This document shows positions 1 to 34,248 of a stretch of DNA of 41,189 nucleotides, in pieces. Both the position numbers and the translations under genes were made by a program. The stretch spans positions 1 through 41,189 of the IMG/VR virus record IMGVR_UViG_3300042507_002200; one strand, 5' to 3'. Each line of letters begins with the position of its first letter. Within the stretch, counting starts at the first letter, position 1. The stretch comes from a virus. The notes under the pieces were generated by a model that saw only the letters and a list, made by a program, of their open reading frames with translations, was not told the origin of the DNA and made no database searches.

Positions 1-1166
1 CGGCTATTGAGCGTGCCGTCAAGCTTGTAGGTACCGGTAACGCTTCCCCCGTCCTGCGCGTATGCCGCGTTCACCAAGGTGTTGCAGTCAAGGTCTTGCG
101 TGCCGCCCGAGGGAATGGTCAGTAGTTCTTCTCCGTCCCATGTCAGGGTCGCATCCTCGCAGGGGGTAGGCTCACACGGGCACAGGTCCGCGATGGTGGC
201 TTGGATAACGGTGCCACCCTCCCACGTTGCCGTGATGGGCGAACTCTGATCGCCCGTTGAAACAGCTTCAAACGTCTCATCCGTTATATTCCAAAGCCCC
301 CATGCTTCATCCCCAACAGACCAAGCTATTGCAAGGGCAGGGTCAAGCTGAGGCTGCGGATACCAAGCGTGGAACCCAAAGAGATCCGCGCCGGGTACGA
401 ATAGAAGTGTCACCGCTGGCTCTCCTGACAACTCCGCCACCAAAGCATTTACGGGGTCGTCGCAGTCCAGCGTGATTTCAGCGCCGCACGGCTCGGCCTC
501 GTTGATAATCTCCACGCCGTTCAGCGTTGCCGTCAATGGGTCGCATGGTCCGCCGCCTTCGCATATCTGCGCTACCCGATCAGGCCCCAAACACTCTACG
601 ACCTTGGCGTTGGACGCCTTGGCGATGATGGCGCACACCACATCCGTCAACTCGCCACACCCTTCAAAGCATCCTTCCGCCGCATCCACCTCCATAATGA
701 TGTCGATGGCCACAAGCACGCGCTCGCTCGGTATAATGGGCAGTGGCTGGAACTCCTGCGTAGCGAAGTCATCTATCTGCCACAGGATGCTCGACATATT
801 CACCCGATATGCACCGGATGCCGTGACAAACTGCTTGCGAGCTTGGCGTATACTACCTGCCGTCTGAACAAGCAATCCCGGCAACTCCGCACACTCGCTA
901 CGGTCCAGCAATGCCACAAGGCGGAAGGGCAGGCGCACTCGGACGCCGCTGCAAGGGTCTCCGATGTCTGTCGGCTCCACGCGGGCCTGCCCGTTTATCC
1001 GCACGTATGACCACGACCCGTTGAGGTCGTTGGCTACCGATACCCATTGGCCGGCGCCTACGTGTACCGCTGGCTGGCCTTGCACGATCTGCGCCCATCC
1101 GTGCCGCGTATCCACCGGCAGCGTCTCTGCCGCCACATTCAGCACGTCTATGATTTGCGCAATCAT
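1..1166 (-). CDS. Virion structural protein, N-terminal part (cut by left window edge)
   Basis: An open frame starts at the ATG at 1166, which overlaps the stop of the upstream gene as ATGA, and runs with no stop for 388 codons to the window edge. The first ~140 residues look like a compact virion domain (WAQIVQGQPAVHVGAGQWVS near residues 24-43). After that come cysteine-flanked beta-rich units, one beginning CDPLTATLNGVEI and another CEDATLTWDGEELLTIPSG. The second kind, an ATL/ATV-strand followed by IPSGG and a short strand, is common in structural proteins of Bacteroidota phages. The position after the capsid gene suggests a head-completion, decoration or fibre protein. The true length is unknown and no enzymatic motif is seen. 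Confidence 0.8.
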   Translation of the reverse strand, partial: MIAQIIDVLNVAAETLPVDTRHGWAQIVQGQPAVHVGAGQWVSVANDLNGSWSYVRINGQARVEPTDIGDPCSGVRVRLPFRLVALLDRSECAELPGLLVQTAGSIRQARKQFVTASGAYRVNMSSILWQIDDFATQEFQPLPIIPSERVLVAIDIIMEVDAAEGCFEGCGELTDVVCAIIAKASNAKVVECLGPDRVAQICEGGGPCDPLTATLNGVEIINEAEPCGAEITLDCDDPVNALVAELSGEPAVTLLFVPGADLFGFHAWYPQPQLDPALAIAWSVGDEAWGLWNITDETFEAVSTGDQSSPITATWEGGTVIQATIADLCPCEPTPCEDATLTWDGEELLTIPSGGTQDLDCNTLVNAAYAQDGGSVTGTYKLDGTLNS

Positions 1167-8831: not shown

Positions 8832-9415
8832 CAGAACACGCCGGTTACGAAATCCAGGATGTCCGGGTCCACCTTGTTCTTCCACTTCACCTCGAAGCTG
8901 AAGAACTGGCGCTCGGAACTGGTCGCAGGGCTTTGACGACCACCGGCAAACTTCACCTCATCGCTGATGTAGGTGAACCGCTGCGCGTCACACTCCAAGA
9001 TCAGCGCACCTCCGATGAGGAAGCCCACGGATTCGTTGATGGAGTTGTAGAACCGCTGGCGGTCGGCGTTCACGTTGGCATCTTCCCATGTCAGCGTCCG
9101 GTCGTAGTTGATCGTCTGCTCGGACCCGCATGGGTCGAAGCTCTCGGCGGTCACTGCGCTCGGCGCGTTCATGGTGATACGCAGGTTCGGACCCGTCACC
9201 TTCTTCGCCCGATCGGTAGCAATGAGTGCTTCGATCTTGGCGGCGTCGATAAGGTCGGGGTCGCCGTCATCCGTGATGTCTTCACGGGTGACGTCACATT
9301 TGAACAGGATAGCGGCGGACATACCGCCGTTGACTGCTTCTGGGCATAGGTCCAATGAACCTACATCGGCCCATTCGTCCACGCAGTAGTACGGGGGGCA
9401 AATTGCTTCGGCCAT
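8831..9415 (-). CDS. Virion protein, possible tail tube or tail completion protein
   Basis: 194 residues from the ATG at 9415 (MAEAICPPYYCVDEW). Beta-rich, six or more cysteines, with a clean C-terminal strand pair (FFSFEVKWKNKVDPDILDF). It has its own promoter candidate and an 80-base structured leader, consistent with an abundant product. The size suits a tail-tube subunit, but its place between tail-tip and portal genes leaves other options such as a neck protein. The family is not recognised. Confidence 0.5.
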   Translation of the reverse strand: MAEAICPPYYCVDEWADVGSLDLCPEAVNGGMSAAILFKCDVTREDITDDGDPDLIDAAKIEALIATDRAKKVTGPNLRITMNAPSAVTAESFDPCGSEQTINYDRTLTWEDANVNADRQRFYNSINESVGFLIGGALILECDAQRFTYISDEVKFAGGRQSPATSSERQFFSFEVKWKNKVDPDILDFVTGVF

Positions 9416-9494
9416 CTTAAAGGCTTGGTTAGATAAACGCAAGCCTTGGGATTTATACGGCCCCCCAAGGTTTGGGGCCGAAAGATGGGATGAC
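9416..9494 (-). promoter_or_regulatory. Structured 5' leader of the gene at 9415
   Basis: Two hairpins lie in this leader on the minus strand. The first is CGGCCCC (9480-9474) with GGGGCCG (9464-9458), a 7-bp stem. The second is AAGGCTT (9447-9441) with AAGCCTT (9426-9420), a 7-bp stem ending about four bases before the ATG, where it could limit ribosome access. The first stem could alternatively be a terminator for the tail-tip operon. Confidence 0.4.
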
Positions 9495-19736: not shown

Positions 19737-20840
19737 TCAAAGTCGAATATCAAGCCTTGGTCCGATGTATGAATAGGTGGCATTGGGCCTTCCTCCCATT
19801 TTGCCTCTTCTTGTTGACTTTGCGCCGTTCTTGCAATTATACCTACCGGGAGCTTTGACTTGTTTCCAGTTTACACTTTTATCATGGGCAGATATGAACG
19901 ATGGGTGTGCTGGGTAGTTGTTTAGCCTTTGGCCTCTGTTAGCAAACATCCCGCCCAAACTATCGAGAAGCACGAACGCAAGACCCAATCCTTGATAATC
20001 GGGCAGGGTGACAACTCTGCTGACGCCGTGTATCGCCTTGCCCTTATCTCGACCACTCGATACAGGTCTTGGCAAAAGAGCAGCAATGCACACGGGTCGA
20101 TCATGCACGAACGCCGCGTAGCACTGTGCTGCCTTGTGTAGTTCGGCACTCATATAGTGATACGGTGCAAAGGTCTTCCACAGGCTGTAAGGTACACGCG
20201 CCAAGGTGACTTCGATGGCTGGTCTTCGCCTTCGTTCCGGGCGCTCGACCCGCCCGGTAGCCATGTCAAGCACCCAATCGGGTTGCAGCCATTCTATGAT
20301 GTCGTAGTGGCAAGTGACAGCAACGAACCGCTTGTTGTTCTTGCGGATGAACTTTTGAACTGCATGGCTTGCAATCTGTGCCACTTGCCGATCCACCACA
20401 GACGTGAACTCGTCGATTACAATGGGGTCGCGTTCGTCTTCAAGGAAGTGTCGTGCAATGGTAGCGCGGAACTGCTCTCCATTACTGAGAACATGGAACG
20501 GTCGCGCCCATGACGGAATCGTGTTAAGTCCCACGGCTCCAAGTGCTGCACTTATCTCGGTCATTTGTTTGTCAGGGGCCAGCGCGTCTATTAGTGCTTT
20601 GTCATGCGGCCACTTCCATTCGATGGGTTCTCCATATGCATGTTTCATGACGGTTGATTTGCCTGAACCTGAAGGTCCGACAATCATTCCAATGCTCCAT
20701 TCGTCTTCAAGTCCTGGAACTTCAACGTGCCATTCAAGTCGTTGCTTTTTGCCAATGGGACAATCGAACACGCTTTCCAATGAAGAAGTGCGGAAGGTGC
20801 GTGGCACCTCGCTTTCGATTACAATGTCAATGGCTTGCAT
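19737..20840 (-). CDS. ABC-type ATPase fused to a GNAT acetyltransferase (COG2401-like)
   Basis: 367 residues with two domains. ABC ATPase, residues ~20-200: Walker A GPSGSGKS (55-62), signature LSNGE (118-122), Walker B IVIDE (140-144), H-loop histidine in VTCHYD (178). No membrane segments and no transporter partner. GNAT domain, residues ~209-340: RVVTLPDYQGLGLAF carries the acetyl-CoA pyrophosphate loop (QGLGLA, 283-288). This fusion matches the family catalogued as COG2401, whose function is unknown. Phage Mu Mom, a DNA-modifying enzyme, also has a GNAT fold, so base modification is one idea. It overlaps the ParB-like gene by 22 bases and precedes terminase. Confidence 0.8.
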   Translation of the reverse strand: MQAIDIVIESEVPRTFRTSSLESVFDCPIGKKQRLEWHVEVPGLEDEWSIGMIVGPSGSGKSTVMKHAYGEPIEWKWPHDKALIDALAPDKQMTEISAALGAVGLNTIPSWARPFHVLSNGEQFRATIARHFLEDERDPIVIDEFTSVVDRQVAQIASHAVQKFIRKNNKRFVAVTCHYDIIEWLQPDWVLDMATGRVERPERRRRPAIEVTLARVPYSLWKTFAPYHYMSAELHKAAQCYAAFVHDRPVCIAALLPRPVSSGRDKGKAIHGVSRVVTLPDYQGLGLAFVLLDSLGGMFANRGQRLNNYPAHPSFISAHDKSVNWKQVKAPGRYNCKNGAKSTRRGKMGGRPNATYSYIGPRLDIRL

Positions 20841-24947: not shown

Positions 24948-26318
24948 CTAAAAAGGTGCTTCGGTGTCGATTCGGTTATCGGGGTGCGGTGCGGTGTTAA
25001 CACGCGGCAAAGGTGGTGCAAAGGATCCGCCCGGCCAATCCAGCATCCGCGTTCCTTGCCCATCGAAGAGCAGGGTAGCAATGCCATCTTCCCCGTCCCG
25101 GTTCTTGGCAATGATCACGTCCACGTTGTCATCCGCGGCTTGGTCGTAGTACCTGGGTCGGTGCAGGAACATCACCGCTTCGGCATCCTGCTCGATTTCT
25201 CCGCTGTCTCGTAGGTCGGTCAGTCCGGGCGGCTTCACCGCTTGGCCTTTCACGGGCCTGTTGAGCTGTGCAAGGACTGCAAACGGCAGGTCCAGGTCTT
25301 TCGCCAGCACCCGGAGTTCGTTGCTGATAGCCGTCATGCGGTCGTATCCGGCCTTTTGCTTGGTAGACGGCTGAAGCAGGCCGATGTAGTCCACCCACAC
25401 CACGTCAATCTTGTGTTTGCGCTTGGCGCGGTCCAGCTTGGCGGCAAGGGTACTGACGGTCATGGATGAACTTTCGTCCACCACCATTCGCGCCAATAGG
25501 TCGCCGTTGGTCACGCTCCATTTGGCCATCGCTTCGCGCTCCCTGTCGGATAGGATGCCGCGCTTGCTCTTCCATGCCGGGATGCCACATTCACCGCACA
25601 CCAGCCTACGGCCAAGGTTGCGGTCCTTCATTTCAAGTTCTGCGATGTAGGGGCGGTGACCGTTCACGGCCTGCCTCCATGCGCAGGAAAGCATGTAGGA
25701 GGTCTTACCCATGGCGGGGCGTGCGCCGATGATCGTGACCGTCCCTGGCTCTAGGCGGATCCGCTTTTGCTCCAAGGCATCGAACCCGAACTGAATACCG
25801 CGGTCGGTGACTTGCTCGTCCACCACTTCGCTGATTACCGCATCCATGGTGCGCGGGTCTTTCGCGCTGAAGTCGGACAATAGGCGGATGTCGTGCGCTG
25901 CGGATGAAAGCAGGTCGAACGGATCCGATGTCGGGTCGTTGCCGATGTTCTGCAACCGTAGGCCCAGAAGGATTGTTTCCCGCTTCAGGTGCATCTGTAC
26001 CAGCAGGGCGGAATGGTACTGGACGTGCTTGGTGGATGCGATGGCGGTGGTAAGCCCGGAAATGTAGACCAGCCCTCCGGCCAATTCCAAGCGGTTACGG
26101 CGCTTCAGGTCCATTACCACGGTCATGGTATCCACCGGAGCGCGGTTGACGTGTAGGGCGGCAACGGATGCCCATATCTCGCGGTGCGCTGGCTTGCTGA
26201 ATGTGTCGGGCTTCAGGATGTCGGAAACATCAACGATGCAATCTGGGTAGGCAAGGCAGGCCCCAAGGACCGCAGCCTCCAATCGTTCGTCGCTGGTATC
26301 GGTGTTCACTGCATCCAT
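24948..26318 (-). CDS. dnaB: Replicative DNA helicase, DnaB family
   Basis: 456 residues from the ATG at 26318 (MDAVNTDTSDERLEAAVLG), 13 bases inside the initiator gene. N-terminal helical domain to ~150, then the RecA-like domain: Walker A GARPAMGKTS near 196-205, the catalytic Glu region YIAELEMKDRNLGRRL, Walker B DVVWVDYIGLLQP, and the C-terminal Gln/Arg segment LRDSGEIEQDAEAVMFLHRP with AKNRDGEDG. All hallmarks of hexameric DnaB are present. Loading is probably by the protein encoded immediately upstream. Confidence 0.93.
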   Translation of the reverse strand: MDAVNTDTSDERLEAAVLGACLAYPDCIVDVSDILKPDTFSKPAHREIWASVAALHVNRAPVDTMTVVMDLKRRNRLELAGGLVYISGLTTAIASTKHVQYHSALLVQMHLKRETILLGLRLQNIGNDPTSDPFDLLSSAAHDIRLLSDFSAKDPRTMDAVISEVVDEQVTDRGIQFGFDALEQKRIRLEPGTVTIIGARPAMGKTSYMLSCAWRQAVNGHRPYIAELEMKDRNLGRRLVCGECGIPAWKSKRGILSDREREAMAKWSVTNGDLLARMVVDESSSMTVSTLAAKLDRAKRKHKIDVVWVDYIGLLQPSTKQKAGYDRMTAISNELRVLAKDLDLPFAVLAQLNRPVKGQAVKPPGLTDLRDSGEIEQDAEAVMFLHRPRYYDQAADDNVDVIIAKNRDGEDGIATLLFDGQGTRMLDWPGGSFAPPLPRVNTAPHPDNRIDTEAPF

Positions 26319-27007
26319 GGCTTCGCGGTTGGGGATATGGTAGGCACTTCGGGCTTGGCTGAAAAGTTGTTCCGCTTCCACGTTCCCATGCGCTTGGCGA
26401 TGTCGAACTTGTCCATTGTGGCGTAACGGGGCTTCGTTTCGGGATGTCCTTCGGTCCAGTAGTCGAAGAACGCCTTTGCCTCGGCATCGGAAAGGATGGC
26501 GCTATCCCTGTGGACCTTCAGGCACCTTTCACGGAACCCTTCATAGTCCAGTTTTGTCGTTACAATAATCGCGCGTTCCTTTTTTTCAGAGTTAGAGTTA
26601 GATACAGATACAGACATAGATAGAACGTCCGTTGGTCGTTCGTTCAACGGTCGTTCAACGGTCGTTGGATGTTCGTTCCTCTTTGCAGCACTTGCTTTGC
26701 CAGCTTCAGACCGTTGTTTCCTGCGCCCTTCGCCGTACTCCCTTGCCGATTCAACAAAGTCAAGGCTCATACCTTCCCCGTGTTGCGTCAACAAGTCCAT
26801 GATGGCATCCGCTTCGCCCTTTGCTACCCGTCGAACGTCTGCCTCGGATAGTGGGCCGCGCTGCCATACGTGGAGCATGACCTTCGTCAGCGCACCGACC
26901 TGTGCGAAAGTCAGCCCATCGCATAGCAGGCCGAACTCCACAGGGTCGAACCGCATCCATTCCAACGGTCGTTGACCTTTCGTTGGGTTCCGTTCATCGT
27001 TCGTCAT
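26306..27007 (-). CDS. Replication initiator / helicase loader candidate
   Basis: 233 residues if started at the ATG at 27007, ten bases after a structured element; an in-frame ATG at 27097 would add 30. The N-terminal domain (~15-100: FGLLCDGLTFAQVGALTKVML ... VRRVAKGEADAIMDLL) resembles the winged-helix DUF1376-type domain of phage replisome organisers. A linker follows, rich in Glu-Arg-Pro-Thr and then alternating Ser-Val and Ser-Asn, and then a C-terminal helical domain (FRERCLKVHRDS, FFDYWTEGHPETK) typical of loaders next to DnaB. The linker DNA holds the candidate origin. Confidence 0.7.
   Translation of the reverse strand: MTNDERNPTKGQRPLEWMRFDPVEFGLLCDGLTFAQVGALTKVMLHVWQRGPLSEADVRRVAKGEADAIMDLLTQHGEGMSLDFVESAREYGEGRRKQRSEAGKASAAKRNEHPTTVERPLNERPTDVLSMSVSVSNSNSEKKERAIIVTTKLDYEGFRERCLKVHRDSAILSDAEAKAFFDYWTEGHPETKPRYATMDKFDIAKRMGTWKRNNFSAKPEVPTISPTAKPWMQ
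26580..26680 (-). other. Candidate replication origin inside the initiator gene
   Basis: On the plus strand GGTCGTT occurs at 26634, 26649 and 26660 with a variant GTTCGTT at 26671, the last three spaced exactly 11 bases, one helical turn. Beside them 26580-26625 is AT-rich (about 30 percent G+C against roughly 58 in the window) with tandem hexamers GTTAGA GTTAGA TACAGA TACAGA. A second cluster of CGTT words at 26967-27000 lies near the gene start. Iterons plus an AT-rich unwinding element in the linker-coding part of the initiator gene is the arrangement of phage lambda ori in O. Confidence 0.5.
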
Positions 27008-27017
27008 ACCAAAAGGG

Positions 27018-27075
27018 CGCCCCCCATGTTCACCTTCAGCAGCCTCTACACTGCTTCGGGTGCCCATGAGGGGCG
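27018..27075 (-). ncRNA. Two-helix RNA element upstream of the initiator gene (copy 2)
   Basis: 58 bases; P1 is a perfect 11-bp stem CGCCCCUCAUG / CAUGGGGGGCG, P2 is AGCAG / CUGCU (27055-27051 with 27042-27038). It ends exactly 10 bases before the ATG at 27007. A copy with the same length and architecture precedes the helicase gene; helices covary between the two. It also lies within an in-frame extension beginning at the ATG at 27097. Class unknown. Confidence 0.6.
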
Positions 27076-27143
27076 GGTATTTTGGTTCGTTGTTCATCGC
27101 TGGTAGAGGACAGCGGCCACCATGCGGTGACGCGGCTAAGATA

Positions 27144-27245
27144 CTAAACTTTCCACTTGTGTCCGCAGTTCATGCAGACGTATCCGCGAATATCCGTAAG
27201 CCACCGCACGGCTATCCTGTCGCTTCCGCAGCATGGGCATTTCAT
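27144..27245 (-). CDS. 33-residue zinc-ribbon microprotein
   Basis: ATG at 27245 overlaps the methyltransferase stop (ATGA). It has MKCPCCGSDR at the N-terminus and YVCMNCGHKWKV at the C-terminus: two CxxC knuckles about 19 residues apart, the size and layout of a minimal zinc ribbon. Such ribbons bind nucleic acid or partner proteins. It is the last gene before a 46-base gap ahead of the initiator leader. Confidence 0.7.
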   Translation of the reverse strand: MKCPCCGSDRIAVRWLTDIRGYVCMNCGHKWKV

Positions 27246-28264
27246 AGCTCCACCTCTTCAGCATCTTCCTGCGCAAGCTCATCAAATAGCTGCGCCTCAC
27301 GTTCACCCACGAACCGGCTGTAAACGGTGGCAAGGTTGCGGATAGCTTGCTTGTAATAGCTCTCCTTCAGTTCTATGCCGATGGCCTTGCGGCCCATGCT
27401 CACAGGTCCGTAAACCTCGGACCCTACACCCATGAACGGCGTCAACACCGTTTCCCCTGGGTTGCTGTACAGGTCCACGAGGCGGTCGATAACGTCAAGC
27501 TGCAACGGGTGGACGTGCTTTTCGTCGTCTTCCTCCCTCCCATCCTTGAACTCTAAAACATGGTTGTTCCGAATGTCATCCCACACGCTTGAAGCGTAAC
27601 GCTGCCAAATGATGTGTGATAGCTTGTTGGTGCGGTGGTCTTTCCACTCCGCATACTTGGCTTTAATGTGTTCCCATGGCCCGTACTTGCGCTCCATTTC
27701 AGGAAGCATCGGATGCGCACCGGCGTACCTTTTCAGCCCTTCGGGGTGCGTCACCGGAACTTCGTTCTCACCTGCTTTTTTGAAGATCAAGACGTAATCG
27801 GGTGCCGCTGGGAAGCTGCGCGTGCTGTCCTCAATTATCATGCGGTGTGTCAAGCTCTTTACCATGGTGCGAATACGAACCTGCAAAGGTTCCTTCCACA
27901 CTGTGATGCGGTTCATGAAGTGGAACCCGTTTTCAAGGTGCAACTTTATGATGTCGTTCGGGAAGTCATACAGCTTGTGCGCGGTGGTGTCGATTATGAT
28001 GTCCTGACAGTGAACAGCGCAAATGCGGCCTGGTTTAATAACGCGACCCATTTGCTCCACCAAGTGCCTGTACTGTTCAAGGAACTCTTCGCGCGTGGCG
28101 CAGTTGCTGAAGTCATTCTCCGAGCTGCTGTAATTATACAAGCCACAGAACGGCGGCGAATAGATGGACAGGTCTATGGACTTGTCCGGCAGCGTGGGAA
28201 GCACGTACATGCAATCGCTGTTGTACAGCGCGTAATCTTCGGTAATGTGTTGGTCCTTGGTCAT
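27242..28264 (-). CDS. DNA methyltransferase, beta class (N6-adenine or N4-cytosine)
   Basis: 340 residues. Motif IV SPPF at 36-39 near the N-terminus, then a long target-recognition region, then the SAM-binding motif I TPFMGVGSEVYGPV near 275-290 with RKAIGIELKESYY after it. This IV-TRD-I order defines the beta group. Asp-x-x-Ile-Tyr-Ser-Pro-Pro-Phe is compatible with N4-cytosine or N6-adenine. No restriction gene lies beside it, so protection of phage DNA from host enzymes or marking for replication is likely. Three bases separate it from the helicase stop. Confidence 0.85.
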   Translation of the reverse strand: MTKDQHITEDYALYNSDCMYVLPTLPDKSIDLSIYSPPFCGLYNYSSSENDFSNCATREEFLEQYRHLVEQMGRVIKPGRICAVHCQDIIIDTTAHKLYDFPNDIIKLHLENGFHFMNRITVWKEPLQVRIRTMVKSLTHRMIIEDSTRSFPAAPDYVLIFKKAGENEVPVTHPEGLKRYAGAHPMLPEMERKYGPWEHIKAKYAEWKDHRTNKLSHIIWQRYASSVWDDIRNNHVLEFKDGREEDDEKHVHPLQLDVIDRLVDLYSNPGETVLTPFMGVGSEVYGPVSMGRKAIGIELKESYYKQAIRNLATVYSRFVGEREAQLFDELAQEDAEEVEL

Positions 28265-28267
28265 GGC

Positions 28268-29641
28268 TTAGAGTTGTTTCAGGAATGATGGGAGGTTGAC
28301 GGCGTGATCGAATTTCGGGCGGTTGCCCTCGTGGTATGCGTTCAACGTGGAGTTGAGGCGGCTGAATAGTTCGTCCATCTTGGCAGACTTGCTGAACAGG
28401 CCATCAATGACCCGCTTTTGTCCATCGCTGTGAACGATGTCCACCGTGACCGAACGGTTCTGGCCAAAGCGCCAAAAGCGGCGGATGGCTTGGTAGTACT
28501 GTTCGTAGCTGAAGGTCGGGAAGTACACCGTGTGGGCGCAGTGCTGCCAGTTCAACCCGAACGCGGTGATCTTCGGCTTGGTGATCAATCGCTTGACCTC
28601 TCCATTGGCAAAGGCAAGCAATAGCTCTTCCTTCTTTTCGATGTCCATGGATCCGCTTATCTGACGCGCTTCAGGGTCCATCTTTTCCAGTAGGTCGCCC
28701 TCCTGGTTGAAGTTGCACCAGTATACCGATGTGTCATGGCCCTGCACAAGTTCCACTGCGCGTTCGCATCGCTTAACGTGGGTCATCTTTTGTTCGCTGC
28801 GGACCTCGCTCATGGTCTTTGCCACGATGTTGAACATAAGCATCTGACCGTCGATTACCCAGTTCTCATCATTGCGCACCGCGTGAAGGTTCGTGACCTT
28901 CTCCGGCAGGTTGTGCCGCGCATCGCTGAACCCGTGGTCGCTTGGCTTGCGCATCGAAATCGACCACCCGCTCACCCACTCAAAGAACGCGGTGTAAGCG
29001 TGGGGCTTGAGGTAGAACTTGGTGCCGATGTCCTGGGGGCGGATGTTGTTTTCGTTGTTGGCAAAGAACTTGCCCAGCATGTCCATGTAGCCCATGTAGC
29101 CCAAGGCTTCTGAACTTGTGCCCAGCTCAATAAAGTCGTTCGGGCTTGGCGTGGCCGTGAACAGGTAGCGGTACGGAACCTTGCGCATGAACGCGGTCAC
29201 CTGCGCCTTTATGGACCCGTCGAAGTTCTTGAGGATGCTGCTTTCGTCAAGCAACACGCAGCCAAAGTCCTCGGCCTTGAACTTGTCGAGCCGTTCGTAA
29301 TTGCATACCACGATACCCGCGCTATACCTTCCGTCCTTGCTGTATTCGATGTCCGTGATACCGAACTTAGCAGCCTCTTTGATGAACTGGAAAGCCACCG
29401 CCAGCGGGGTCAATATCAGCACCGGCTTGCCCGTGTGCTTGCGGTAGTTCACCGCCGTTGTCAGTTCGATGATGGTCTTCCCCAATCCGGTGTCCAGGAA
29501 CACCGCGCACCGTCCTTTGCGGATGGCGTATTCTGCTACGTAGGTCTGGTAATCAAATAGGCCATCCGGCATCCAATCCGGTTCGATACCGTAGTTGCTT
29601 GGCCTGTGCCGTTTGCGTTCAAGTAGCTCGTCGTAGTTCAT
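28268..29641 (-). CDS. SF2 (SNF2-like) DNA helicase
   Basis: 457 residues if started at the ATG at 29641 (MNYDELLERKRHRPSN); an in-frame ATG at 29731 would add 30. Walker A TGLGKT (51-56), motif II LDES (131-134), motif III TATPSP (163-168), and motif VI QAIRRFWRFGQNR near 385-397 make a complete superfamily 2 core; the motif VI form with Arg-x-x-Arg-x-Gly-Gln is that of SNF2-related phage helicases. A probable role is in replication or recombination of phage DNA, in a cluster with NinB-like and SSB-like genes. Confidence 0.88.
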   Translation of the reverse strand: MNYDELLERKRHRPSNYGIEPDWMPDGLFDYQTYVAEYAIRKGRCAVFLDTGLGKTIIELTTAVNYRKHTGKPVLILTPLAVAFQFIKEAAKFGITDIEYSKDGRYSAGIVVCNYERLDKFKAEDFGCVLLDESSILKNFDGSIKAQVTAFMRKVPYRYLFTATPSPNDFIELGTSSEALGYMGYMDMLGKFFANNENNIRPQDIGTKFYLKPHAYTAFFEWVSGWSISMRKPSDHGFSDARHNLPEKVTNLHAVRNDENWVIDGQMLMFNIVAKTMSEVRSEQKMTHVKRCERAVELVQGHDTSVYWCNFNQEGDLLEKMDPEARQISGSMDIEKKEELLLAFANGEVKRLITKPKITAFGLNWQHCAHTVYFPTFSYEQYYQAIRRFWRFGQNRSVTVDIVHSDGQKRVIDGLFSKSAKMDELFSRLNSTLNAYHEGNRPKFDHAVNLPSFLKQL

Positions 29642-29651
29642 TGAAAGAGTA

Positions 29652-29709
29652 CGCCCCCCACGTTCACAGTCCACACCGGCCAGGGTGCTTCGTGTGCCCG
29701 TGAGGGGCG
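29652..29709 (-). ncRNA. Two-helix RNA element upstream of the helicase gene (copy 1)
   Basis: 58 bases; P1 is a perfect 11-bp stem CGCCCCUCACG / CGUGGGGGGCG, P2 is GCACC / GGUGU (29688-29684 with 29677-29673, one G-U pair). Inside P1, GG opposite AA is followed by CAC/GUG pairing that extends the stem. It ends exactly 10 bases before the ATG at 29641, as copy 2 does before its gene. A promoter candidate lies about 45 bases upstream, so the element would be in the 5' leader. Confidence 0.6.
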
Positions 29710-29755
29710 ATGTGTTGGTTGTGGTTGTCATTGCTGCTGGCCCAGCGTGATGCTG

Positions 29756-29787
29756 CAAACGTAATGATGTTTCGACAACTATCACAA
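29756..29787 (-). promoter_or_regulatory. Promoter candidate for the helicase-methyltransferase operon
   Basis: Minus strand: TTG (29787-29785), 21 bases, TACGTTTG (29763-29756), an exact TAnnTTTG match. An imperfect inverted repeat TGATAGTT...AAACATCA fills the spacer. A start near 29751 would give a leader that contains the whole RNA element. The upstream box overlaps the last codons of the preceding gene. Confidence 0.5.
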
Positions 29788-30024
29788 GTTCGCCCGAAAT
29801 TCTTTCAGCGCCTTTCGCTCCCGTGCTGTCCACATCATAGGCGTCACGTATCCGCCGCTTCTGTCTCGCTCCACCATCATGCGGTCATAGGCTGCACTTC
29901 CTTTTTCCGGGGTCCATGGGAACTCCCTTTCATCCATCTTGGACATTACAAGCCGAATGCTATCCGGCGTAGTGGTGTGCTGCATTATTGAAGGCTTGCA
30001 CTGCTTCAGCTTTAGCTTTTTCAT
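29782..30024 (-). CDS. 80-residue hypothetical protein
   Basis: ATG at 30024 overlaps the upstream stop (ATGA). Basic start (MKKLKLKQCKPS) and a C-terminal MMWTARERKALKEFRANL helix; the middle (FPWTPEKGSAAYDRMMVERDRSG) is polar. No recognised motif. Probably a small early protein of the recombination cluster. Confidence 0.5.
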   Translation of the reverse strand: MKKLKLKQCKPSIMQHTTTPDSIRLVMSKMDEREFPWTPEKGSAAYDRMMVERDRSGGYVTPMMWTARERKALKEFRANL

Positions 30025-33232: not shown

Positions 33233-33520
33233 TTATGCTTGTTCGGTGACTATGGAAACCACTCCGCAATCAACAAGCATCAAAGCGGCTACCTGTGCTG
33301 CGTGCTTGCCGTTTTTGGAAATTGCCGTACGGACGATTGCCTTTGCCCTTTCTCCCGCCTTTGTCACAAAGGTCTTCCTTCCTGAGCATCCAAAGCACAC
33401 GGTTCCGTGCATCATGTTGAAGGCATAGTTACCACTTCCTCCGCACCGCTTGCATGGAGCAGTCTCATACTTCACATTAAAGATTTTGAACTCTACATTG
33501 ATGTGAGTGGTGGTGTTCAT
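33233..33520 (-). CDS. Small protein with DnaJ-type zinc-finger motif
   Basis: 95 residues from the ATG at 33520 (MNTTTHINVEFKIFNVKYET). CKRCGGSGNYAF and, 15 residues on, TVCFGCSGRKTFVT form two CxxCxG knuckles like half of a DnaJ zinc domain. The last 35 residues form a helix and hydrophobic end (AAQVAALMLVDCGVVSIV). It has its own promoter and shares its first five residues and leader with the gene at 33989-34192. Probably an early host-takeover or regulatory protein; not proven. Confidence 0.65.
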   Translation of the reverse strand: MNTTTHINVEFKIFNVKYETAPCKRCGGSGNYAFNMMHGTVCFGCSGRKTFVTKAGERAKAIVRTAISKNGKHAAQVAALMLVDCGVVSIVTEQA

Positions 33521-33545
33521 GGCGTGTCGTTGTTCGTTGATGGGT

Positions 33546-33577
33546 CAAATATAACACCGTTGTCCACTGTGTGCAAC
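33546..33577 (-). promoter_or_regulatory. Promoter with degenerate operator palindrome (early cassette 1)
   Basis: Minus strand: TTG (33576-33574), 20 bases, TATATTTG (33553-33546). GTTGCACA-CAG-TGGACAAC (33577-33559) is a 6-of-8 match to the perfect palindrome at 34248-34230. The 25 bases before the ATG are nearly identical to those of the other cassette (CAACGAACAACGACACGCC). Confidence 0.7.
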
Positions 33578-33970: not shown

Positions 33971-33991
33971 CGGGTCGCGCCGATGGGGTTA
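33971..33991 (-). repeat. 21-base repeat after early gene stop (copy 2)
   Basis: Exact copy of 33232-33212, here beginning with the TAA stop of the upstream gene. Confidence 0.7.
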
Positions 33992-34192
33992 CTGGATGCT
34001 CAGGACATCAATGTCCTGAGCATGTTGAAATCCGCAAAGAGTGAACATGGCGGCGTTGAACAACCATTCGTCGCGATCCGATTGGCTCATGCCCTTGGTA
34101 ATGATTATAGCCTCCGAACGTTGCGCAATTTCTTTCATGCGCTGGCTAAGTACTTCCATTGCTTGCTTTTCGGTGTAGGTCGTGGTGTTCAT
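33989..34192 (-). CDS. 67-residue early protein (MNTTT cassette 2)
   Basis: ATG at 34192 (MNTTTYTEKQAMEVLSQRM). Helical, with RSEAIIITKGMSQSDRDEW and a hydrophobic LFNAAMFTLCGF segment too short to be a sure membrane span. It is the first gene after the 34.3-kb terminator and has the best promoter in the window. The first five residues and the leader match the gene at 33233-33520. Confidence 0.65.
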   Translation of the reverse strand: MNTTTYTEKQAMEVLSQRMKEIAQRSEAIIITKGMSQSDRDEWLFNAAMFTLCGFQHAQDIDVLSIQ

Positions 34193-34217
34193 GGCGTGTC
34201 GTTGTTCGTTGGTTTGA

Positions 34218-34248
34218 CAAATATACAGAGTTGCACACTATGTGCAAC
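34218..34248 (-). promoter_or_regulatory. Strong promoter with perfect operator palindrome (early cassette 2)
   Basis: Minus strand: TTG (34247-34245), exactly 19 bases, TATATTTG (34225-34218), a textbook Bacteroidota promoter. GTTGCACATAGTGTGCAAC (34248-34230) is a perfect 8+3+8 palindrome that covers the upstream box and most of the spacer, as expected for a repressor site. The start site would be about 18 bases before the ATG at 34192. Confidence 0.8.

Follow-up and report, generated by a model that had tools for sequence, protein, structure and literature searches.

A kissing-loop leader between promoter box and start codon of replication genes in Bacteroidota-type phages: a candidate transcription attenuator

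Kissing complexes that act between molecules are formed by RNA I and RNA II of ColE1 and by the HIV DIS, in which the loop-loop helix comprises all 6-7 loop bases. The loops of the guanidine-II riboswitch are short and conserved (ACGR), and phage T7 harbors RNase III sites, hairpins of about 60 nt located just upstream of start codons, of which there are several per genome. In the guanidine-IV riboswitch (mepA) the 5' leader holds two hairpins; the first kisses, loop to loop, a terminator hairpin that is followed by poly-U, and this contact was proposed to impede completion of the terminator stem and in this way to permit read-through (PMC11611296). Guanidine-II (mini-ykkC) comprises two hairpins joined by a linker and contacting each other through their loops (PMC9300104, PMC7544219). 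The put elements of phage HK022 are promoter-proximal, contain two hairpins and are repeated behind several promoters; the copies have a common sequence, their first stem folding into an RNA triplex (PMC9378689).

The window studied here is a virus record of 41,189 bases. It contains two copies, designated A and B and both residing on the minus strand, of a leader which resembles each of these systems in part. As in guanidine-IV, the loop of hairpin 1 kisses the loop of hairpin 2, whereas the U-tract, which in guanidine-IV follows the terminator, is strong in AT-rich leader copies and weak in A and B. The leader differs from guanidine-IV by the lack of an Rfam match and of a conserved ligand-binding sequence, by a kissing sequence that is different in each lineage, by a linker of about 14-27 nt and by a GG/AA loop within the putative terminator hairpin of many copies. 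Moreover, it occurs in phages in front of replication genes, and no genes for guanidine export or metabolism are located downstream of it in the window or in the GC-rich homologues. Judged by this analogy, the leader would most likely work like the guanidine-IV riboswitch without belonging to it. Compared to guanidine-II, its loops form fully variable kissing helices of 6-9 nt beside a promoter and a start codon, and compared to put, it possesses a loop-loop helix, a terminator-like end and sequences that are unrelated between lineages. Whole loops are paired as in ColE1 RNA I/RNA II and HIV DIS, but within one leader, and the loop pair changes from copy to copy. The T7 sites share size and place of the long hairpin, but have neither a kissing partner hairpin nor a promoter-proximal position. 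In the open-licence literature we found descriptions neither of this element nor of a post-initiation control of early genes in Bacteroidota phages.

Two leader copies in the window

A first-pass annotation of the DNA had claimed two 58-nt sequences at 29709-29652 and 27075-27018 (minus strand), each ending exactly 10 bases before an ATG. Both were recovered at precisely these positions as copy A and copy B, and the foot of P1 lies exactly 10 nt from the ATG at 29641 and 27007, respectively. The intervening tails are TACTCTTTCA in copy A (29642-29651), which contains a weak U-tract, and CCCTTTTGGT in copy B (27008-27017). A descriptor based purely on structure, which asks for promoter, P0, six or more kissing pairs, long stem, U-tract and ATG, likewise gave two leaders in the window; one additional match at 20068 falls within a coding region and is probably spurious. 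The gene under leader A (28268-29641, minus strand) encodes a DEAD/SNF2-like DNA helicase (Pfam PF00271 and PF00270; PHROG 62, DNA helicase). Leader B precedes the gene of a 233-aa putative replication-initiation protein (26306-27007, minus strand) directly upstream of dnaB. This protein belongs to a function-unknown family (PHROG 19415) and had no match in a Pfam search. It is probably an initiator, since dnaB adjoins its gene and since the genes preceded by the leaders of the homologues L214 and L231 encode DUF1376 or primosomal/O-like proteins (PHROGs).

Copies A and B each fold into one long hairpin, P1-GG/AA-P2-YGAN/NGAN-P3, composed of P1 with 11 pairs, a 2x2 GG/AA internal loop, P2 with 4 pairs, a 4x4 YGAN/NGAN loop, P3 with 5 pairs and an apical loop of 6-7 nt. 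In copy A (29652-29709, minus strand; 82.9 bits with the covariance model R1, see below) P1 (29709-29699/29662-29652) is followed by GG (29698-29697) opposite AA (29664-29663), by P2 (CACA/TGTG) with the adjoining YGAN/NGAN loop, by P3 (29688-29684/29677-29673) and by the kissing loop CTGGCC (29683-29678). Copy B (27018-27075, minus strand; 83.7 bits) shows the same succession with P1 at 27075-27065/27028-27018, GG (27064-27063) opposite AA (27030-27029), P2 (CACC/GGTG), a CGAA/TGAA loop, P3 at 27054-27050/27043-27039 and the kissing loop GTAGAG (27049-27044). The 11 perfect pairs that had been ascribed to P1 are indeed continuous in both copies, although one of them is a U-G wobble. The compensated change in P1 (CACG/CGTG versus CATG/CATG) and the exchange of C-G for G-C in the inner helix were confirmed. 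On the other hand, GGCACnCGAAGCA and GUGAA, which had been regarded as motifs flanking the helices, are not single-stranded but part of P2 and the internal loops: together they build the 2x2 GG/AA loop, the 4-bp helix CACN/NGTG and the 4x4 loop with GA on both strands.

The functional unit reaches upstream of the long hairpin and includes a promoter box and, near the predicted 5' end of the transcript, a hairpin, P0, whose loop kisses the apical loop. P0 and its kissing interaction, the decisive feature of the leader, were absent from the first-pass annotation. In the GC-rich homologues a -7 element of the Bacteroidota type (TAnnTTTG or a close variant) is located upstream of P0. On the minus strand of the window, copy A carries the TAnnTTTG-type element TACGTTTG at 29756-29763 and copy B TATCTTAG at 27136-27143, assigned by the consensus published for Flavobacterium johnsoniae (PMC6847099). 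As consensus and spacing of this species set the G at -5 (PMC6847099), the transcript of copy A is predicted to start at about position 29751, five bases before P0, whereas the predicted start of copy B, about 27131, coincides with the first base of a small hairpin, H0. From the sequence, the boxes are presumably active promoters, and the host is presumably a member of the Bacteroidota.

P0 has the consensus CGCTG-loop-CAGCG. In copy A it reads GCTG-GGCCAG-CAGC (29733-29746) and its loop (29742-29737) kisses 29683-29678; in copy B it reads CGCTG-TCCTCTAC-CAGCG (27098-27115), and CTCTAC within the loop kisses 27049-27044. An A-rich linker, at 29710-29732 in copy A, then leads to P1. It comprises 22-24 nt in the window copies and about 14-27 nt across leaders, and contains the sequence AUGA, which is invariant in 13 of 13 GC-rich copies (29731-29728 in A, 27097-27094 in B), while the frame behind it varies. 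The AT-rich relative L348 has no AUGA in its linker. The additional 5'-terminal hairpin H0 of copy B (GTCACC-GCAT-GGTGGC, 27116-27131, folded with RNAfold) has no counterpart in copy A; it is present in L127, L128, L132, L209, L214 and L231 and absent from L204 and L216. Judged by eye, its stem exhibits two-sided changes among the homologues.

A different kind of duplicated gene start, without a kissing leader, was noticed elsewhere on the minus strand of the window. Both copies of a 52-nt repeat (33502-33553 and 34174-34225, 87% identity) include the promoter box TATATTTG and a leader that extends into ATGAACACCACN, whereby the early genes 33233-33520 and 33989-34192 share a duplicated promoter and start.

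Homologues and the loop-loop helix

By scanning phages with related helicases for P1 and the inner motif, the homologues L127, L128, L131 and L132 were found. The covariance model R1, built from five copies, added L204, L207, L208, L209 (two copies), L214, L215, L216, L231 and L267, and two further pattern scans yielded L280 and L349. L231 comes from a Flavobacteriales MAG, although this contig may be a binned phage; the remaining homologues are viral contigs. Among roughly 440 bacterial genomes, searched at class, order and family level, this MAG contig (L231/G037) was the sole member. The check suggested in the first-pass annotation, to run a covariance model of the copies on other phages, thus led to homologous leaders at 58-89 bits with extensive covariation, which are not chance matches. 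Two candidates, L281 in a histidine-kinase gene and L313, a terminator, were rejected as chance matches. A loose scan of viral contigs for GGCACNCGAAGCA followed by GTGAA produced 119 stretches, all of them chance matches and none with P1. BLAST of the leader against named phages gave no sequence homologue, which fits the sequence turnover of the leader.

Comparison with R1 also brought up the idea that the leader mimics helix 44 of 16S rRNA and binds a ribosomal protein. In 395 class-level genomes, the best non-phage match outside L231 was helix 44 of one Bacteroidia genome with 29.1 bits (L312, G161:C1:792445-792490), in which GGGCACCCGAAG and GCTGAAGGTGAAC are identical to copy B and in the same spacing. 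However, unrelated chance matches scored 27.6-28.2 bits, a model made from 17 other Bacteroidota helix-44 sequences gave copy B 8.5 bits (E = 2.2) and copy A none up to E = 10, and divergent leader copies are devoid of the motif. On account of the independent model and the similarly scoring chance matches, this highly improbable explanation was abandoned. The helix 44 of G161 is unlike the other Bacteroidota helix-44 sequences compared, and a search for its type in other genomes returned only G161.

The first-pass annotation had also asked whether the pairing or only a peptide is kept in homologues. Our data favor the RNA, as the pairing is maintained where the peptide frame is stopped or shifted. 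Although each of the 13 GC-rich copies has an ATG upstream, neither frame nor peptide is conserved. The frame continues into the gene in A, B and L128, stops within the hairpin in L127, L204 and L209b, and overruns the gene start out of frame in L131/L132 and L231; with respect to the 5' half of the hairpin, the frame of L128 is offset by one. A leader peptide or uORF was therefore rejected, and the open frames crossing the window leaders are incidental.

In each of the 13 distinct homologous copies, P0 and the long hairpin have loops that are reverse complements of each other, with six Watson-Crick pairs between the P0 loop and the apical loop. Nine types of loop pairs occur: GGCCAG/CTGGCC (A, L204, L216, L280), CTCTAC/GTAGAG (B), GGTCAG/CTGACC (L127), GTGCAG/CTGCAC (L132), GTGAGG/CCTCAC (L128), GTCAGG/CCTGAC (L231), GGCTAC/GTAGCC (L214, L349), GGGCAG/CTGCCC (L209a) and GTCGAG/CTCGAC (L209b). 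None of 72 combinations with foreign loops was perfect, and the observed kissing total was reached by none of 100,000 permutations. This permutation test, comparing own with foreign loop partners, is less exposed to alignment bias than the alignment of the paired segments, which was trimmed by hand to equal length with the structure in mind, so that its figure of 99.2% paired cells over 30 pairs is biased toward the fold. Two-sided compensatory changes affected 21 of the 30 pairs, including all six of the kissing helix.

Copies residing in one genome have kissing pairs of their own, which points to an action in cis. This weighs against a stand-alone small RNA that has its own promoter and terminator and ends by chance at a gene start. 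A promoter box and a terminator-like end are present as such an RNA would require, but in nearly all copies the start codon follows within 10-30 nt, leaving no space for a second promoter, and we regard this explanation as very improbable.

The genes downstream in the window and in the GC-rich homologues encode a helicase, a primase, primosomal or O-like proteins, a PAPS reductase-like and a methylase-like protein. L127 and L207 possess an identical leader in front of different genes, one of the primase type (BT4734-like_N, PriCT_1), the other coding for a PAPS-reductase/DUF3440 protein, indicating that the leader is a cassette. Conversely, the helicases of L204 and L209b have the same N-terminus and leaders of different sequence. 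The earlier proposal of a cis-regulatory or riboswitch-like leader of replication genes was upheld in its first part, since the element is promoter-proximal, covaries strongly and lies immediately before a start codon. A small-molecule riboswitch was not supported: Rfam revealed no match in the window at gathering thresholds, and a relaxed search of 26900-29900 (E up to 10) gave three chance matches only and no riboswitch; sequence conservation does not extend beyond one group of close phages, and identical leaders stand before unrelated genes.

Diverged copies and cultured phages

With R3, a model of the whole leader, the AT-rich relative L348 was detected at 29.5 bits; it has a 7-nt kiss (TCGCACC/GGTGCGA). 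R3 also disclosed that L216, L128 and L279 each have a second, diverged copy, and all three of these copies form a perfect kissing pair of their own. Strongly diverged second copies lie at 44-145 (minus strand) in L216, 4402-4498 in L128, 5086-5185 in L279 and about 3392 in L204, and the same phages hold a GC-rich copy. Between L204 and L279, P0 stem and kissing loop differ and both pairings are kept.

The structural descriptor gave 16 distinct matches in 0.56 Mb of helicase-bearing phage DNA, all of them on the gene strand, and one match in the reversed control. When the promoter was not required, nine of 55 non-redundant helicase starts had the element, compared to 0.25 expected from dinucleotide shuffles; for a kiss of at least 7, six were observed and 0.08 expected. 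The descriptor was tuned on the same type of data, the shuffled and reversed controls being run at identical settings; as a heuristic it misses many leaders and returns some false matches in long genomes. The 46 helicase leaders outside it mean that the device either is not universal or is under-detected.

Three leader copies each are present in the cultured Flavobacterium phages hattifnatt9-1 and snusmum6-1, and one copy each in cultured FCV-1, whose genome was scanned in part, in Polaribacter phage P12002L and in Flavobacterium phage 11b. In the third copy of the close relatives hattifnatt9-1 and snusmum6-1, GTGAGACG/CGTCTCAC is replaced by GTGGAACG/CGTTCCAC, a compensated change. The GG/AA loop recurs in the distant copies of L348, hattifnatt9-1 and FCV-1 without being universal. 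Outside one group of close phages, the architecture is kept and the sequence is not. Computation on the sequences shows that two hairpins with kissing loops, placed between promoter box and ATG, recur with differing sequence in many Bacteroidota-type phages.

The repetition within genomes (three copies in hattifnatt9-1, two each in L209, L216 and L128), each copy just behind a promoter and with two hairpins, is reminiscent of putL and putR of HK022 (PMC9378689). A leader of this kind would bind the elongating RNA polymerase in cis and cause it to ignore downstream terminators. Since put consists of two stem-loops with conserved sequence and no U-tract, and the leader has a linker of 14-27 nt, a loop-loop helix, a sequence that has turned over completely and a start codon at the foot of the hairpin, we consider processive antitermination of the put type unlikely.

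Terminator-like end and possible modes of action

AT-rich copies exhibit strong U-tracts directly 3' of the stem. In A, B and some other GC-rich copies the tract is weak (3-5 T) and often separated from the stem by 3-5 nt. Neither A nor B was flagged on the minus strand when the window was scanned for standard terminators. When no U-tract was required in the search, most kiss-bearing hairpins nevertheless had 5-9 T within the next 10 nt, compared to four of 21 controls; the background of this search was high (32 matches versus 21 in the control), and single matches without a U-tract are unreliable.

The order of promoter, 5' hairpin, kissing terminator and start codon matches the logic proposed for guanidine-IV. 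For this reason we favor, though with no better than even confidence, a cis-acting, promoter-proximal kissing-loop RNA whose long hairpin is a conditional intrinsic terminator, i.e., a transcription attenuator in which kiss and terminator compete. Transcription would begin just upstream of P0 and proceed through the A-rich linker into the long hairpin, whose apical loop pairs with the P0 loop and whose base lies directly before the start codon, usually with a U-tract. On the nascent RNA, the kissing helix would compete with completion of the terminator stem, and in the kissed state the RNA polymerase would read through into the gene. A phage or host protein, the speed of transcription, a ribosome or time alone are candidates for biasing the switch; because the leader is a cassette without conserved sequence, a metabolite is a less likely trigger than a general factor or a timing that is purely kinetic. 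Several points speak against attenuation: the U-tracts of A, B and some other GC-rich copies are weak, 46 of 55 helicase leaders do not fit the descriptor, the kissing helix may form alongside the complete long hairpin instead of competing with it, and the AUGA shared by all GC-rich linkers has no part in the model.

The weak U-tracts of A and B, together with the tuning of initiation by mRNA structure in Bacteroidota, make translational control the main rival, to which we assign a smaller yet appreciable probability. The same kissing fold would then set the access to a start codon 8-28 nt downstream, or load ribosomes through AUGA or the U-rich tail, without any termination. The start codon is located 10-17 nt from the stem in nearly all GC-rich copies, AUGA is invariant there, and Bacteroidota do without Shine-Dalgarno sequences; initiation in F. 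johnsoniae depends on structure (PMC6847099). Yet the strong U-tracts behind the stems of AT-rich copies are the signature of an intrinsic terminator, a tail rich in U instead of A is unusual at a Bacteroidota start, and the upstream reading frame is not kept. A 5'-terminal kissing structure might also protect early mRNAs or be cut by RNase III like the early hairpins of T7, in line with a hairpin at the predicted 5' end of the transcript and a long hairpin directly upstream of the start codon. Kissing helix and U-tracts are poorly explained by processing or stability, which we deem rather improbable.

Bacteroidota phages might share a general expression switch for which nothing but the architecture of the RNA is decisive: a promoter, a hairpin at the 5' end, a kissing terminator hairpin and a start codon. 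Tentatively, such a switch would spread as a cassette among early genes, lose nearly all of its primary sequence, escape sequence and covariance-model searches, and act without a metabolite as a kinetic timer or by sensing the state of the transcription machinery. Full sequence turnover combined with a strict loop-loop helix illustrates how regulatory RNAs evade family-based annotation, and it provides a search rule for further leaders: a P0 loop complementary to the loop of hairpin 2, behind TAnnTTTG and before ATG. The cultured Flavobacterium phages with three copies each make the leader directly testable.

The leader also bears on the annotation of gene starts, as open frames cross it in the window. 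In hattifnatt9-1 (NC_048832, L369; region 9409-9477), the annotated helicase start at 9441 sits within the leader hairpin; the likelier start is the ATG at 9477, which is in frame and directly follows the U-tract.
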